In this document: piece by piece, positions 35,770-42,256 of the stretch | How the letters are laid out: each line of letters opens with the position of its first letter | Position numbering within the stretch: the first letter of the stretch is position 1 | Translations under genes and position numbers: made by a program | NCBI GenBank assembly: GCA_017941085.1 | Contig: JAGAXF010000034.1 | Location: 1-64,000 of the forward strand | From: Bacillota bacterium | GTDB taxonomy: Bacteria; Bacillota; Clostridia; Peptostreptococcales; Anaerovoracaceae | Length of the DNA stretch: 64,000 bases | Reading direction: 5' to 3' | The notes under the pieces: model-generated | Database searches by the model: none | What the model was told of the DNA's origin: nothing | The model's input: only the letters and a program-made list of their open reading frames with translations

Positions 35770-35845
35770 GCGCCAGTAGCTCAGTGGATAGAGTGTTTCA
35801 CTCCGAATGAAAAGGCCGCGAGTTCGATCCTCGCCTGGCGCACCA
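35770..35845 (+). tRNA. tRNA-Arg (anticodon CCG)
   Basis: Full cloverleaf: acceptor stem GCGCCAG/CTGGCGC, D arm with GCTCAGTGGATAGAGT, anticodon stem TTTCA/TGAAA with loop CTCCGAA (anticodon CCG, reads CGG), T arm CGAG-TTCGATC-CTCG, discriminator A and an encoded CCA at 35843-35845. It lies 33 nt after the methyltransferase gene and 5 nt before the ribosome binding site of fchA, so it is probably cut from a longer transcript. Confidence 0.96.
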
Positions 35846-35860
35846 TTTTTGGAGGACAGT

Positions 35861-36484
35861 ATGGAAAACAGTTTCAAAGAAATCTCAATAAAGGAATATA
35901 CAAGGGAGCTATCTTCCTCTGAAGCGGTTCCCGGTGGTGGAGGAACATCCGCCTTGGTGGGGGCCCTGGCTGTTTCCCTTGGTAATATGGTGGGTTCCCT
36001 TACTGTGGGCAAGAAAAAGTACCAGGATGTGGAGGATGAAATAAAGGACCTTATGGCAAGAGGTGAAAGCCTTAGATTAAAACTTCTTGACCTAATTGAC
36101 AAGGATGCAGAGTCCTTTATTCCGCTGGCTGCAGCTTACAGAATAGACAAGGAAGATCCAGATAGGGATGAGATAATGGAGAAGGCTTTAAAGGACGCCT
36201 CCATGGTTCCTTTGGATATTATAAAGGCCTGTAAAGAGGTTGTGGAGATAATAGAAATTCTGGCAGAAAAGGGCTCCAGGCTTGCTGTGTCAGATGCAGG
36301 GGCCGCAGCCACCTTGGTAAAGGCTGCTGCTGAAGCCGCCGTTTTAAATATCTACATAAATACGAAATTCATGAAGAACAGAAACTACGCAGAGAATCAA
36401 AACAAGATAGCCAACAATCTAGTTAAGGAATGCGTGGAAAGAGCAGAAGGGGTCTATGGCAAAGTAGTCGAGAATCTAATGTGA
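35861..36484 (+). CDS. fchA: Methenyltetrahydrofolate cyclohydrolase FchA (cyclodeaminase family)
   Basis: 207-residue protein of the formiminotransferase-cyclodeaminase C-domain family. In acetogens and purinolytic clostridia it hydrolyses 5,10-methenyl-THF to 10-formyl-THF. The SSSEAVPGGGGTSALVGALA stretch near the N-terminus and the SDAGAAATLVKAAAEAAVLN helix are diagnostic. The start is the ATG at 35861 with GGAGG at 35851-35855, right behind the tRNA; an ATG at 35807 in the same frame lies inside the tRNA and is rejected. folD follows 7 nt later, so the two enzymes for adjacent one-carbon steps are made together. Confidence 0.9.
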   Translation: MENSFKEISIKEYTRELSSSEAVPGGGGTSALVGALAVSLGNMVGSLTVGKKKYQDVEDEIKDLMARGESLRLKLLDLIDKDAESFIPLAAAYRIDKEDPDRDEIMEKALKDASMVPLDIIKACKEVVEIIEILAEKGSRLAVSDAGAAATLVKAAAEAAVLNIYINTKFMKNRNYAENQNKIANNLVKECVERAEGVYGKVVENLM

Positions 36485-36491
36485 GGATATA

Positions 36492-37349
36492 ATGGCAGAG
36501 ATTTTAAAGGGTGCTCCAGTGGCTGAGGCCATAAGGGAGAAAAACATCAAAGCTGTAGAAGAACTAAAGAATCAAGGTATCCATCCCACCTTGGCTATTA
36601 TTAGAGTGGGAGAAAGCCCTGATGACATTGCCTATGAAAATAGCATTCTCAAGGCCTGCGAAATGGTTGGAGTTTTGGTGGAGAAGACTTTGCTGGATGA
36701 GAATGTGGACCAGAAGAAATTTGAAGAATCCTTGATTTCTCTAAATCAGAATCCCAAGATCCACGGAATTCTCATGTTTATGCCTCTGCCTAAACACCTG
36801 GATGGAGAAGAGGCCAGAAGAATTTTAGATCCTAAAAAGGATGTGGACGGACTTACAGATGCTTCTTTGGCGGGAGTATTTACCAACAAAAGAACCGGGT
36901 TTCCTCCCTGTACTGCCCAGGGGGTTATGGAGACTCTTAAATACTATGGTGTAGAATTAAAGGGTAAGAAGGTGGCGGTAATAGGTCGATCTTTGGTAAT
37001 CGGTAGACCTGTGGCCATGATGCTTATGCATGAGAATGCAACGGTGGTAAATTGCCATACAGGAACAGTGGATGTCCCGGCCATTACCAGGGAAGCTGAC
37101 GTGCTTATTGCTGCTGCAGGAAAACTTGGCTCCGTTAACTCTACCTTTGTTAATCCCAATCAGGTTGTAATAGATGTGGGAATCAATTGGGATGAAGAGA
37201 ATAAATGCATTGCAGGTGATGTGGACAGAAATGAGGTTGAACCCATTGTTAAAGCTCTGTCTCCCGTGCCTGGAGGAATTGGTACGGTAACCACTGCAGT
37301 TTTGGTATCCCATGTGATAGAAGCGGCAAATGAACAGGGAAGGAAATAA
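36492..37349 (+). CDS. folD: Bifunctional methylene-THF dehydrogenase / methenyl-THF cyclohydrolase FolD
   Basis: 285-residue enzyme interconverting 5,10-methylene-, 5,10-methenyl- and 10-formyl-THF. The catalytic Tyr/Lys region of FolD is here in the form SPDDIAYENSILKACEMVGV: the usual YxxxK is shifted to YENSILK with the Lys kept. GILMFMPLPKHLDGEEARRI, the PCTAQGVMETL loop, the Rossmann segment VIGRSLVIGRPVAMML and PVPGGIGTVTTAVL are all present. It is close behind fchA, which may supply extra cyclohydrolase capacity. GAGGAT precedes the ATG. Confidence 0.94.
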   Translation: MAEILKGAPVAEAIREKNIKAVEELKNQGIHPTLAIIRVGESPDDIAYENSILKACEMVGVLVEKTLLDENVDQKKFEESLISLNQNPKIHGILMFMPLPKHLDGEEARRILDPKKDVDGLTDASLAGVFTNKRTGFPPCTAQGVMETLKYYGVELKGKKVAVIGRSLVIGRPVAMMLMHENATVVNCHTGTVDVPAITREADVLIAAAGKLGSVNSTFVNPNQVVIDVGINWDEENKCIAGDVDRNEVEPIVKALSPVPGGIGTVTTAVLVSHVIEAANEQGRK

Positions 37350-38736
37350 TACTACCAAAAGAAAAGAGAAGAACCTAAAGGAAGGGAAGAGTACAAGGCT
37401 TCAGGATGCGGCTGAAGCCAGATATAAGGATATGACGGAAACACCTATTTCCAGTCTTATTCCCAGATTGGCTGTCCCTACCATAATCAGCATGCTAGTT
37501 ACTGCTTTATACAACGCTGCTGATACTTTTTTTGTTGGAAAAATATCCACAGAGGCCACGGCTGCCGTTGGTCTCTGCTTTTCTGTTATGGCAATTATCC
37601 AAGCCTTTGGTTTTTTTGCCGGGCAGGGTTCAGGAAATTTCTTATCCAGAATGCTGGGGGCCAGAAATGAAAGAGAAGCCCAAGAGATGGCAGCCACAGG
37701 ACTTGCCCTTTCTATGATAATCGGCCTTATTACCGCCAGCCTAATAATATTTAATGTACGGAAGCTGGCAGGTTTCCTGGGAGCAACTTCCACTACGGTG
37801 GATGAGACCGTAAGCTATTTGAGAATAATTGCCCTGGGGGCACCCTTTATGATGGGGCAGTTTGTAATTAACAATCAGCTTAGGTATCAGGGCAGTGCCA
37901 CCTATGCCATGATGGGACTTCTTTGCGGTGCGGTTCTTAATATAGCCTTGGATCCAATTCTAATTTTTGGACTTGATTTGGGGGTCACAGGAGCGGCTCT
38001 TGCCACCATTACCGGGCAGATTACCAGTTTCTTTGTGCTAATGTTCGGCACCACCCGAGGAGCCAATATAAGGCTAAAACCGAGAAATATTCATCTGAAT
38101 TCCCACTATATTTTTGAAATAATAAACGGAGGTATTCCGGCTTTGTTTAGACAGGGTCTTGCAGCAATAGCAACTATTCTGTTAAACAGAGCTGCCGGGG
38201 TATATGGAGATGCGGCCATTGCGGGAATGAGTGTAACCACAAGAGTAATGATGTTTGTAGCCAGTGCCATGATTGGATTTGGCCAAGGCTATCAACCGGT
38301 ATGTGCCTTTAATTATGGTGCAGACTTAAAGGGGAGAGTAAGGGAAGGTTATTTCTTCTGTGTAAAGTATGGAACTGTTTTTTTAACTCTTATGTCGGCC
38401 CTATGTCTAATCTTTGCTCCCAATATAATTGGATTTTTCAGAAATGATCCGGCGGTAATAGAGGTTGGCCAGGTGGCCTTAAGATGTCAGGCGGCAGCCC
38501 TTCCTCTTCTGGGCTGTACAGTAATTACAAATATGATGTTGCAATCCATGGGAAAGGGTCTAAAGGCGTCCGTAACCGCTTCTGCCCGAAGTGGACTGTT
38601 CTTTATTCCGCTGATACTGATTCTTCCAAGAGTTTTTGGACTTTTGGGAGTGGAGATAAGCCAAGCAATTTCCGATGTTTTATCAATTTCCATTTCAATT
38701 CCCTTTGCCTATTCGGAACTGAAGAAAATGAAGTGA
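37330..38736 (+). CDS. MATE-family efflux transporter
   Basis: 468-residue multidrug and toxin extrusion family protein with about twelve membrane segments in two homologous halves. SSLIPRLAVPTIISMLVTAL begins helix 1, YNAADTFFVGKI is the family signature, and IGFGQGYQPVCAFNYGA marks the second half. The first 35 residues are polar and basic, longer than usual, and MTETPISSL (ATG at 37432) is another possible start; neither has a strong ribosome binding site. The frame overlaps folD by 20 nt if the first ATG is used. Substrate unknown. Confidence 0.88.
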   Translation: MNREGNNTTKRKEKNLKEGKSTRLQDAAEARYKDMTETPISSLIPRLAVPTIISMLVTALYNAADTFFVGKISTEATAAVGLCFSVMAIIQAFGFFAGQGSGNFLSRMLGARNEREAQEMAATGLALSMIIGLITASLIIFNVRKLAGFLGATSTTVDETVSYLRIIALGAPFMMGQFVINNQLRYQGSATYAMMGLLCGAVLNIALDPILIFGLDLGVTGAALATITGQITSFFVLMFGTTRGANIRLKPRNIHLNSHYIFEIINGGIPALFRQGLAAIATILLNRAAGVYGDAAIAGMSVTTRVMMFVASAMIGFGQGYQPVCAFNYGADLKGRVREGYFFCVKYGTVFLTLMSALCLIFAPNIIGFFRNDPAVIEVGQVALRCQAAALPLLGCTVITNMMLQSMGKGLKASVTASARSGLFFIPLILILPRVFGLLGVEISQAISDVLSISISIPFAYSELKKMK

Positions 38737-38771: not shown

Positions 38772-38801
38772 TAATTGGACTTATCATGGAAGGAGTTTCT
38801 T

Positions 38802-39386
38802 ATGTCTTTAAACAAAGAGACAAATCAAGGATTAAAAGAATTGGACAATACTTCAAGGAGCAAAGACCGGGGAAGTATTTTTAAATTTGACACCAAAACC
38901 TTGGTTATATTGGCTCTTTTGGTAGCTATGGAAATAATCCTAAACCGATTCCTTTCCATTAATGCCTGGAATATCAAAATCGGTTTTAGCTTTGTTCCAA
39001 TAGTTATTGCGGCCATCCTCTTTGGTCCTGTTCACAGTGCCATAGTGGGAGGACTGGGAGATTTTATAGGGGCCTTGCTTTTTCCCATAGGCGCATATTT
39101 TCCCGGATTTACCTTAACTGCTGTTCTAATGGGAATAGTGTGGGGAATATTTCTTTTTAAAAATCAATCCATTGTTAGAATCGGATTGGCAACCATCATC
39201 AATCAGTTTATTTTGGGACTTGTGGTTAATACCTATTGGATTTCAGTTCTATATGGATCTCCCTATGGACCTTTGTTTGTTACAAGAATAGCTCAAGCTT
39301 TTATTCTCACAGTAGTTCAGATACTGGTGATATTTGGAATAGAAAAAGCAGCACCTAGACTAAGAAATGCCATTAGGCAAGAGTAG
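38802..39386 (+). CDS. folT: ECF transporter S-component for folate (FolT-like)
   Basis: 194-residue membrane S-component with about five to six helices after a polar N-terminus of about 35 residues. NAWNIKIGFSFVPIVIAAIL, LFGPVHSAIVGGLGDFIGAL and LFPIGAYFPGFTLTAVLMG match folate-type S-components (FolT), which bind the vitamin and dock to a shared EcfAAT module (not in the window). Its neighbours folD, fchA and the folC fusion support folate as ligand. AAGGAG precedes the ATG at 38802; the frame is open from a TTG at 38775. Confidence 0.85.
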   Translation: MSLNKETNQGLKELDNTSRSKDRGSIFKFDTKTLVILALLVAMEIILNRFLSINAWNIKIGFSFVPIVIAAILFGPVHSAIVGGLGDFIGALLFPIGAYFPGFTLTAVLMGIVWGIFLFKNQSIVRIGLATIINQFILGLVVNTYWISVLYGSPYGPLFVTRIAQAFILTVVQILVIFGIEKAAPRLRNAIRQE

Positions 39387-39413: not shown

Positions 39414-41276
39414 GTGAGCATGACACCAAAGGAAGCAATTTCATATATTGAGAACTACGGGTGGAGCACCACCAGACTTGGATTGGAAAGAACCAAGGAA
39501 CTTCTGGAAAAGCTGGGAAATCCCCAGAAAAGTCTAAAGTTCATTCACGTGGCAGGAAGCAACGGCAAAGGAAGTACCTGTGCCATGATTGCCGCAATTT
39601 TAGAATCTGCAGGCTATAAAACCGGCCTATACATTTCTCCCTATATTGAAATTTTTAATGAAAGAATCCGGATTAATGGTGAATATATCTCCGGTGAAAG
39701 ACTGGCAGAAATTACGGAAAGGGTTATGGCCATTGCAGATGCCATGGAGGATCATCCCAGCCAGTTTGAATTGGTAACGGCCATTGCCATTCAGTATTAC
39801 TATGAAGAAAACTGCGACATAGTTGTGCTGGAGGTAGGTATGGGAGGTGCATTGGACAGCACCAACGCCATCGATGCTCCGGAGGTTGCGGTTATTACCA
39901 ATATCGGATTGGAGCATACAGAATACCTGGGCAGCAATCTGGAGGAAATTGCTGAAACAAAGTCGGGAATAATTAAGCCGGGTTGCAATTGTGTCTGTTA
40001 TGATGGAGACCAGGTGGTGGTGGAAACTGTACAGAAGGTCTGTGAAAAAATCCGAGTTCCCCTTACAATTGCTTATAAAAATAGAATTAGGAAAATTTCT
40101 TCAGGCCTAAATGGTCAGGAGTTTATGTATTTGCCTTTTGATGGTTCTGATAAGGGGGAGGAGTATAACCTTGCCCTTTTGGGAGACCATCAGTTAAGAA
40201 ATGTTGCTGTGGTACTTGCTATAGTTCAGGTTCTAAGAGACAGAGGATGGAAAATAAATCGGGATGCAGTAAGGACTGGATTAAGGAAGGTTAAATGGCC
40301 GGCTCGTTTTGAGGTTCTTAACAGGAATCCTCTGTTTATTCTGGATGGAGGTCACAATCCTCAATGTGCAGAGGCCTTGGTGGAAGCCATTAATGAATAT
40401 TTGCCGGAAGAAAAAATCATTTTCCTTCTGGGGGTTCTGGGGGATAAGGATTATGAAAGCATTATTCAAATGATGCTGCCCTTTGCTGAAGAATTCATTT
40501 GTGTAACGCCACTAAGCGAAAGGGCCTTACCTGCATTTCAATTGGCCGAATTTATAAGATCCCTTGGAGGAAATGCCACCTATGCAGATGATATTCCCCA
40601 GGGAGTTATGAAGGCACTGGAAAAGGGTGAAAACAATCCCGTAATTGGATTTGGATCTCTTTATTTGGCCGGGGCTGTAAGGAAGGAATTTAAAAAAAGA
40701 GAGAAAGCTGCTCTTCGCTCCAGAGGAATTAAAAATAGAAATGCCTTAACTGAAGAAGAAAGAATAAAAGGCTCTGAGGTAATAGCAAAAAGGATTCTGT
40801 CTTTGCCGGAATATGAAAAAGCAGAAAAGGTTTTCCTCTATAAGTGGACAAAGGGAGAGGTTAGACTGGATCCTCTGGAAGCCTTTAATAATACTGAACC
40901 CCATAGGAAAAGATTTTTATATCCACTGACCCTTGAAGAGGGTGAGATGGTAGCCCTTGAACCGGGAGAAGGAAGGGACAGTTGGAAGACAGGTGCCTTT
41001 GGAATTCTTGAACCTGTATATGAAAAGGGAAAGGAAGTTTCTCCGGAGGAAATAGACTTTGTGATTTGCCCTTTATCTGCCTTTGATAGAGAAGGAAACA
41101 GGCTGGGCATGGGTGGAGGATACTATGATAGATTCCTGCCAAAGTGTAAAAATGCAGTGATTGTTGGGGTGGCCTTTGATGTGCAGGAAATATATAAGGT
41201 GCCAAGGGAACCCTATGATTACAAACCGGATATGATTATAACGGATAGTGGTATTGTGAAGGAACATCAGGAATAA
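39414..41276 (+). CDS. Fusion: folylpolyglutamate synthase (FolC) + 5-formyltetrahydrofolate cyclo-ligase (FthC/MTHFS)
   Basis: 620 residues with two complete enzyme domains. Residues 1 to about 425 are FolC, a Mur-ligase-fold enzyme adding glutamate to folates: P-loop HVAGSNGKGSTCAM near 44-57, YISPYIEIFNERIRI, GMGGALDSTNAI, and the C-terminal ILDGGHNPQCAEAL. Residues about 430-620 are a 5-formyl-THF cyclo-ligase, which turns folinate into 5,10-methenyl-THF with ATP; FDREGNRLGMGGGYYDRFL is its signature. There is no stop or internal Met near the junction, so it is one polypeptide. It starts at GTG 39414 (GAGGAT 6 nt upstream) or ATG 39420. It follows folT by 27 nt. Confidence 0.93.
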   Translation: MSMTPKEAISYIENYGWSTTRLGLERTKELLEKLGNPQKSLKFIHVAGSNGKGSTCAMIAAILESAGYKTGLYISPYIEIFNERIRINGEYISGERLAEITERVMAIADAMEDHPSQFELVTAIAIQYYYEENCDIVVLEVGMGGALDSTNAIDAPEVAVITNIGLEHTEYLGSNLEEIAETKSGIIKPGCNCVCYDGDQVVVETVQKVCEKIRVPLTIAYKNRIRKISSGLNGQEFMYLPFDGSDKGEEYNLALLGDHQLRNVAVVLAIVQVLRDRGWKINRDAVRTGLRKVKWPARFEVLNRNPLFILDGGHNPQCAEALVEAINEYLPEEKIIFLLGVLGDKDYESIIQMMLPFAEEFICVTPLSERALPAFQLAEFIRSLGGNATYADDIPQGVMKALEKGENNPVIGFGSLYLAGAVRKEFKKREKAALRSRGIKNRNALTEEERIKGSEVIAKRILSLPEYEKAEKVFLYKWTKGEVRLDPLEAFNNTEPHRKRFLYPLTLEEGEMVALEPGEGRDSWKTGAFGILEPVYEKGKEVSPEEIDFVICPLSAFDREGNRLGMGGGYYDRFLPKCKNAVIVGVAFDVQEIYKVPREPYDYKPDMIITDSGIVKEHQE

Positions 41277-41290
41277 TCAAGAGGACGCAA

Positions 41291-42256
41291 ATGAAGGAAA
41301 TATCAATTACAGAAATCGAAAATATTGCCATCGGTCAGGTGGAGGATGTGGAGGGAGCAACAGGCTGCACAGCATTTATATCAAAGGAAGGAATGTCTGT
41401 AGGTATGGATGTAAGAGGCGGTGGGCCAGCCTCCAGGGAAAGTGGACTTTTGGATCCTTTAACTCAAGAGCATGATCTTCACGGTGTGGTACTTGCCGGC
41501 GGTAGTGCCTATGGACTTCAGGCATCGGGAGGAGTCCTTAAGTGCTTGGAGGAAAGAGGAATAGGCTACGATGTGGGAGGAAGCATAGTTCCTCTGGTTG
41601 TTCAATCGGATATCTTTGATATAAAAATCGGAAAACCCGGCATAAGACCTGACGAAGAAATGGGATATAGGGCTGCTGAAATGGCCTTGGATTCTCCCAA
41701 TTATAGAGATGGTATTTATGGCGCAGGCTGTGGTGCCACTGTGGGCAAAATCCGAGGAATGGACACCTGTATGAAATCCGGTGTGGGAAGCTACGCAATA
41801 CAAATCGGAAACCTTAAGATAGGAGCAGTGGTGGTTGTAAACGCCTGGGGAGATGTTTTCAATTGGAGAACCGGAGAAAAGATAGCCGGTTTATTAAATG
41901 AGGATAAAAAATCCTTCGGAGACTCTATGAAGGAATTGCAAACCTTAGTTAAGGATGTGGAAAATAAGTTTACGGGAAATACAACCTTGGGAGTTGTTAT
42001 AACCAACGGTAAATTCGATAAAAGAAAACTTTGCAAAATTGCGGGAATGGGTCAGGATGGATTGGCTCGTTCCATAAGACCTGTTCACACCTCTGCCGAT
42101 GGAGATACAGTATATGCTGTTTCCGTAGGGGATGTGGAAGCAGATCAGGATTTGGTTGGAACCATGGCTGCGGAGGTAATAAGCGAAGCCATTACCCGTG
42201 CCATTGAAAAGGCTGAAAGCGCCTACGGCCATACCGCAGCCAGGGATTTGTTTTAG
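41291..42256 (+). CDS. P1-family peptidase (DmpA/S58 type)
   Basis: 321 residues, full length for the DmpA aminopeptidase/autoproteolytic family (N-terminal nucleophile fold). AGGSAYGLQASGGVLKCLEE near residue 75, YGAGCGATVGKIRG near 145 and the predicted self-cleavage region GNTTLGVVITN near residue 230 (Thr nucleophile) are present. Such enzymes release N-terminal D- or L-amino acids or beta-amino acids. It is 14 nt after the folate fusion gene and ends 3 nt before the converging trpS, with no terminator between. Confidence 0.87.
   Translation: MKEISITEIENIAIGQVEDVEGATGCTAFISKEGMSVGMDVRGGGPASRESGLLDPLTQEHDLHGVVLAGGSAYGLQASGGVLKCLEERGIGYDVGGSIVPLVVQSDIFDIKIGKPGIRPDEEMGYRAAEMALDSPNYRDGIYGAGCGATVGKIRGMDTCMKSGVGSYAIQIGNLKIGAVVVVNAWGDVFNWRTGEKIAGLLNEDKKSFGDSMKELQTLVKDVENKFTGNTTLGVVITNGKFDKRKLCKIAGMGQDGLARSIRPVHTSADGDTVYAVSVGDVEADQDLVGTMAAEVISEAITRAIEKAESAYGHTAARDLF

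Follow-up and report, generated by a model that had tools for sequence, protein, structure and literature searches.

A FolC-5-formyl-THF cyclo-ligase fusion in Anaerovoracaceae, a predicted bifunctional enzyme of folate salvage

A single open frame in a clostridial genome from a group of gut bacteria raises the question of whether FolC (folylpolyglutamate synthase) and 5-formyl-THF cyclo-ligase (5-FCL) are made as one polypeptide and, if so, what the joining is for. The frame lies in a window of 64,000 nt, the whole stretch of DNA analysed here, on the forward strand of contig JAGAXF010000034.1 of a Bacillota bacterium (Anaerovoracaceae; GCA_017941085.1; genome 1.66 Mb, 38 contigs, 96% complete).

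Two complete enzymes in one open frame

The frame (39414-41276, + strand) comprises 620 codons from GTG 39414 to the stop at 41276 and is uninterrupted by stop or frameshift, as the sequence-only reading had stated for the junction. An in-frame ATG lies at 39420, two codons in, and most relatives begin there. The folC profile TIGR01499 matched the N-terminal half over positions 1-399 of 400 (381 bits vs cut-off 163, E = 9.4e-114), with Pfam PF08245 and PF02875 in agreement. The cyclo-ligase equivalog TIGR02727 matched the C-terminal half over positions 1-181 of 182 (141 bits vs cut-off 85, E = 4.6e-41), as did PF01812 (129 vs cut-off 27), and the gap between the two TIGR matches is 5 residues. 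The FolC half was 30-34% identical to FPGS 1o5z/2gc5 (Foldseek E = 1.8e-35), its nearest solved structures being FPGS 1o5z and 1fgs, and fold and conserved motifs of FolC (TIGR01499; 1fgs, 1o5z, 1w78) match this entire half; the solved FolCs, however, terminate at the point where the fusion continues into the second enzyme. Similarly, the entire C-terminal half, including the GMGGGYYD motif, resembles the YgfA/MTHFS 5-FCLs (TIGR02727; 1sou, 2jcb, 3hxt). It matched the solved 5-FCLs 1sou, 1ydm, 2jcb and human 3hxt, and its motif residues were aligned with those of 3hxt and 1sou. YgfA/MTHFS is normally a free protein of ~190 aa, whereas in the fusion the first 5-FCL helix continues the last helix of FolC. 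No solved chain spanning both halves was found by structure comparison.

The active-site residues of FolC (GSNGKGS region N50-S54, E140, H168 and K183) and the motif residues of 5-FCL (R435, R442, E482 and, in R563-x-G-x-G...YD, R563, G565, G567, Y571 and D572) were invariant in 27 aligned fusions. We take the former to be the P-loop and the conserved active-site Glu, His and Lys of FolC, and the latter presumably have catalytic or ATP-binding roles. These results confirmed the domain architecture that had been read from the letters, a complete FolC followed by a complete 5-FCL in one frame with intact signatures, both now with near-total profile coverage and catalytic-motif residues kept. Both halves are very probably active as enzymes.

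We asked whether the frame would yield one protein or two. In the AlphaFold model, made with the 27 fusions (mean pLDDT 92, pTM 0.88), DSSP assigned an unbroken helix across the junction; the pTM value speaks only to confidence in the domain arrangement, not to substrate transfer between sites. Two separate proteins in the cell, arising by an internal start or by proteolysis at the junction, could find a start in TTG codon 418, 10-13 residues ahead of the 5-FCL half. However, codons 400-479 contain neither ATG nor GTG, strong-start codons among them are limited to TTG 418 and TTG 464, no clear Shine-Dalgarno was found ahead of either, and the junction is modelled with high confidence as a continuous helix. 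We consider two proteins highly improbable, and the earlier claim that an internal start is lacking near the junction held.

The fusion might also be an artefact of assembly or sequencing, or a decaying read-through gene, as the draft state of the source genome and the broken folC frame of one relative (G292) could suggest. Against this, ten family genomes, among them G009 (one contig) and G005 (two contigs), carry the fusion unbroken, and dN/dS was 0.04-0.28 in both halves in five pairs of fused genes, with some synonymous distances near saturation. At the junction dN/dS was 0.08-0.22 where computable in these pairs, which indicates purifying selection across it. Recurrence, selection and the single-contig genome led us to reject read-through or mis-assembly, to which we assign next to no chance, and the presence of the same architecture in many independent assemblies excludes chance as well as mis-assembly.

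Table 1. Coordinates of the gene run and of related fusion loci. Positions are those of the window unless a locus is named.
Feature	Position	Strand	Evidence or remark
tRNA-Arg (CCG)	35770-35845		
fchA-like methenyl-THF cyclohydrolase/cyclodeaminase (FTCD_C), opens the run	35861-36484	+	PF04961, E = 1e-57
folD, methylene-THF dehydrogenase/cyclohydrolase	36492-37349	+	PF00763, PF02882
MATE-family efflux gene	37330-38736	+	
folT, folate-family ECF S-component	38775-39386	+	TIGR04518, E = 7.6e-44; 27 bases upstream of fusion
FolC half, residues 1-428	39414-40697	+	TIGR01499, residues 24-425
Junction helix, residues 416-443 (FolC last helix = 5-FCL first helix)	40659-40742	+	AlphaFold, DSSP
5-FCL half, residues 429-620, including stop	40698-41276	+	TIGR02727, residues 431-610
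Peptidase family S58 (DmpA-like) gene	41291-42256	+	14 bases downstream of fusion
FolT-5FCL loci L209-L216	genomes G030, G501, G339, G335, G375, G502, G379, G146		
FolT-FolC-5FCL	L136:1591-3930		780 aa from FolT Met
Formate/nitrite-channel-family protein joined to 5-FCL	L024:610-2067 (G020)		486-aa frame
FolC-5FCL continuing into RlmB-like RNA methyltransferase	L116:2302-5001		900 aa
FolC then P-loop ATP/GTP-binding domain	L198:1652-3694; L199:1918-3924		669-681 aa

Recurrence of FolC-5FCL and other 5-FCL fusions

A survey for the same architecture, which the sequence-only reading had proposed, found it again in many assemblies. Of the 13 genomes in the genus, 7 encode FolC-5FCL in a single frame of 610-673 aa; the remainder have FolC alone without 5-FCL (G008 and G002), are cut at a contig end (two) or have no FolC (two). 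The family contains an intact fusion in 10 of 350 genomes, from two genera, and a named scan returned ~30 fused loci, all in Clostridia records and mostly in uncultured rumen or gut bins. Among the matches listed in a phylum protein search of 398 genomes, from which very divergent ones could escape, no other covered both halves; no record in the plasmid collection covered both halves, and the viral structure library gave no match. Closer inspection of ten long FolC frames showed none to be FolC-5FCL. Elsewhere in the phylum, two other families have frames in which FolC is followed by a P-loop ATP/GTP-binding domain (Table 1).

In a FolC tree of 105 sequences, all 32 distinct fused ones fell within one 73-row clade (98%), mixed with unfused ones, and the fusion state changed 14 times by parsimony, with at least 7 changes forced by well-supported branches. 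In the 5-FCL tree, every fused half grouped in a single clade (99% SH-aLRT) that also contains free neighbours and the FolT-fused one. A single clean origin is not supported, since fused and unfused rows are mixed in both clades, and for the same reason gain and loss are indistinguishable. The earlier reading missed that FolC-5FCL recurs within a clade and has been acquired or lost on several occasions. Split or precursor forms were seen as well: the stop of folC and the start of 5-FCL overlap in G308, and in G361 a short gap lies between the genes. The fusion is dispensable, given that 5-FCL is a separate protein or missing in some close relatives.

A description of the FolC-5FCL domain order was not found in open-access literature text, which agrees with the earlier remark that the fusion was not known as a described enzyme. 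The FolK-FolB and PabA fusions covered in PMC1971073 likewise place consecutive folate enzymes in one chain, but belong to de novo synthesis, whereas FolC-5FCL would belong to salvage; its consulted passages mention ygfA in a figure legend alone and name no fusion of folC with ygfA. The parts are known, and the architecture appears to be new.

5-FCL also occurs in other fusions. FolT-5FCL, with 5-FCL at the FolT C-terminus in one frame of ~360 aa, was found in each of the seven genomes searched from a sister genus (g19) and in one g51 genome; in the two loci scanned (L209 and L216), both parts were above curated cut-offs. Its AlphaFold model comprised six helices and a 5-FCL domain; since pTM was 0.47 and the linker was disordered, we make no claim on domain orientation. 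The C-terminus of S-components is cytoplasmic, and the fused 5-FCL would therefore sit at the importer exit. A single record from a sheep rumen bin (L136) joins FolT, FolC and 5-FCL in one frame, in which an internal Met ahead of FolC would also permit two proteins.

Several further arrangements were noted. A formate/nitrite-channel-family (FNT) protein is joined to 5-FCL in G020, and an FNT gene is found within the fol run of many relatives. In L116, the FolC-5FCL frame extends further to include an RlmB-like RNA methyltransferase. Visual inspection showed a QueH-like domain ahead of 5-FCL in L020 (G039) and a GNAT-like domain behind 5-FCL in L013 (G059). Long frames are also present in G050 and G238, congeners of G039.

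Folate-salvage genotype and the formiminotransferase substitute

The fusion gene lies in a same-strand, closely spaced run of fchA-like, folD, MATE transporter, folT, FolC-5FCL and family S58 peptidase genes (Table 1). The order widely kept in relatives is fchA, folD, (formate-channel-like FNT), folT, folC, with folT directly upstream of folC in most of them; a MATE gene of this kind between folD and folT was not seen in the relatives examined. The listed fchA-like frame (35807-36484) begins inside the tRNA, and the true start is probably ATG 35861, which follows a ggagg signal; the NF045657 match of this gene was under its equivalog cut-off. The start of folT may be an ATG 9 codons further in. 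Upstream of the run, a search for regulatory RNA found none, only the tRNA, and promoter and terminator matches in the run were near chance level.

HPPK (PF01288) was detected in 0 of 13 congeners, with control genomes positive in 11 of 14. The lone Pterin_bind match is an 815-aa frame whose beginning, by reading of the sequence, resembles a homocysteine methyltransferase and whose end resembles a cobalamin-binding domain, which identifies it as MetH rather than FolP. With HPPK absent, MetH the sole pterin-binding match and FolT present, the organism is predicted to be a folate salvager (auxotroph). DHFR is present, so that oxidised folate could also be salvaged and reduced. Because HPPK is missing, and FolP by the same reading, any DHFS activity of the fusion is probably idle; the HPPK absence argues for FPGS only, not DHFS, in the predicted FolC half.

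PF01812 had one match in the whole genome, inside the fusion frame, which is therefore the sole 5-FCL; a check for a stand-alone fthC, set beforehand, accordingly found none. According to PMC3223725, which cites Jeanguenin 2010, glutamate formiminotransferase can replace 5-FCL by complementation. Formiminotransferase is absent from the source genome and was found in 0 of 6 fused genomes passing a quality filter (≥90% complete, ≤5% contaminated), one of which is G292 with its broken folC frame; it is absent in fused G000, G001, G005, G009 and G012. It is present in G008 and G002, which have FolC alone, and in G003 and G006, where 5-FCL was not found. Two genomes, G007 and G010, are fused, yet also carry formiminotransferase. 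Among 151 family genomes ≥90% complete, 73 had 5-FCL only, 31 formiminotransferase only, 38 both and 9 neither, a mutual avoidance with an odds ratio of 0.15 (Fisher p = 2.6e-6, uncorrected for relatedness). The good genomes with neither were G358, G299, G320, G170, G272, G378, G306, G394 and G025. Read most simply, this pattern means that the cell relies on the fused domain for its 5-FCL function.

This bears on whether the 5-FCL half could be a non-working enzyme that instead binds folate and regulates FolC. 5-formyl-THF inhibits folate enzymes (PMC9426524), and in the AlphaFold model a rigid helix connects the halves. However, the half scores above an equivalog cut-off with its catalytic-motif residues invariant, and it is the sole 5-FCL in genomes that also lack formiminotransferase, which makes a regulatory domain very unlikely.

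Role of the fusion in folate import and retention

We consider FolC-5FCL probably a bifunctional folate-salvage enzyme, a prediction to which the cut-offs passed, the motifs kept, the sole 5-FCL, the absent HPPK, the formiminotransferase absence and avoidance pattern, the FolT-5FCL and FolT-FolC-5FCL fusions and the route proposed for JCVI-syn3A all contribute. 5-formyl-THF, the drug leucovorin, is the most stable natural folate. FolT would import reduced folate, 5-formyl-THF included, and the C-terminal half would render it usable by ATP-driven closure to 5,10-methenyl-THF. Two further products of the gene run, FolD and the FchA-like protein, would convert methenyl-THF to 10-formyl- and methylene-THF, which bacterial FPGSs accept. 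The N-terminal half would then polyglutamylate these forms, using ATP and glutamate for gamma-glutamate addition, and so retain folate in the cell. Because bacterial FPGSs prefer 10-formyl- or methylene-THF to 5-formyl-THF, the cyclohydrolase together with 5-FCL would bring imported folinate into a form acceptable to FolC. The 5-FCL half would also clear 5-formyl-THF formed in the side reaction of serine hydroxymethyltransferase. That polyglutamylation keeps folate inside cells is stated in PMC1971073. FolT has been reported as an importer of 5-formyl-THF, and Syn3A was modelled with a 5-formyl-THF route of import, cyclo-ligase and polyglutamylation (PMC6609329); there, FolT, FolC and 5-FCL are three separate proteins, whereas here two of the three are one polypeptide. 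Several observations stand against the salvage reading: with DHFR present, reduced folate is not the sole possible source; fused G007 and G010 also carry formiminotransferase; some close relatives manage without the fusion; and the tandem gene order by itself makes a neutral fusion easy.

The sequence-only reading had suggested a route from imported folinate to retained polyglutamated one-carbon folates, which is partly supported. The adjoining FolT, the sole 5-FCL, the predicted auxotrophy and the independent-looking FolT-5FCL agree with it, and the import step itself we infer. We suggest only tentatively that the two enzymes were joined on account of import. We put forward, with similar reserve, that 5-FCL may be a docking partner of folate import, repeatedly fused to FolT or FolC, up to FolT-FolC-5FCL. 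FolT-5FCL is the strongest hint from which we infer such a link. In four g19 species with FolT-5FCL (G030, G335, G375 and G501), formiminotransferase occurs as well, and repair alone thus does not require their 5-FCL.

A possible though not favoured alternative gives the protein the same two activities but sees in the fusion a frozen accident of operon order, which fixes stoichiometry and saves a start site while the main task of 5-FCL is to remove, as damage control, the 5-formyl-THF that serine hydroxymethyltransferase produces, import being irrelevant. The tandem order of folC and 5-FCL, adjacent or overlapping already in G361 and G308, makes a neutral fusion easy, and the repeated changes of fusion state fit with this. 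Relatives also fuse 5-FCL to non-folate proteins (the GNAT-like and RlmB-like cases), and the literature treats 5-FCL as a repair enzyme (PMC9426524). In contrast, proteins that import or retain folate or one-carbon units (FolC, FolT, formate channel) are over-represented among the fusion partners, and the four g19 species keep a transporter-fused 5-FCL although formiminotransferase could already repair.

Taken with FolT-5FCL, the FolC-5FCL fusion hints that folate import and activation may be physically linked. If so, imported 5-formyl-THF would be activated and polyglutamylated on arrival, and 5-FCL would in such cells be foremost a nutrient-assimilation enzyme, not a repair enzyme. The FolC and FolT fusions make this nutrition view, as against repair, directly testable with single proteins. 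Rumen and gut communities could be screened with them for organisms that possibly scavenge folinate, and for the engineering of folate uptake they offer a model supplied by nature.
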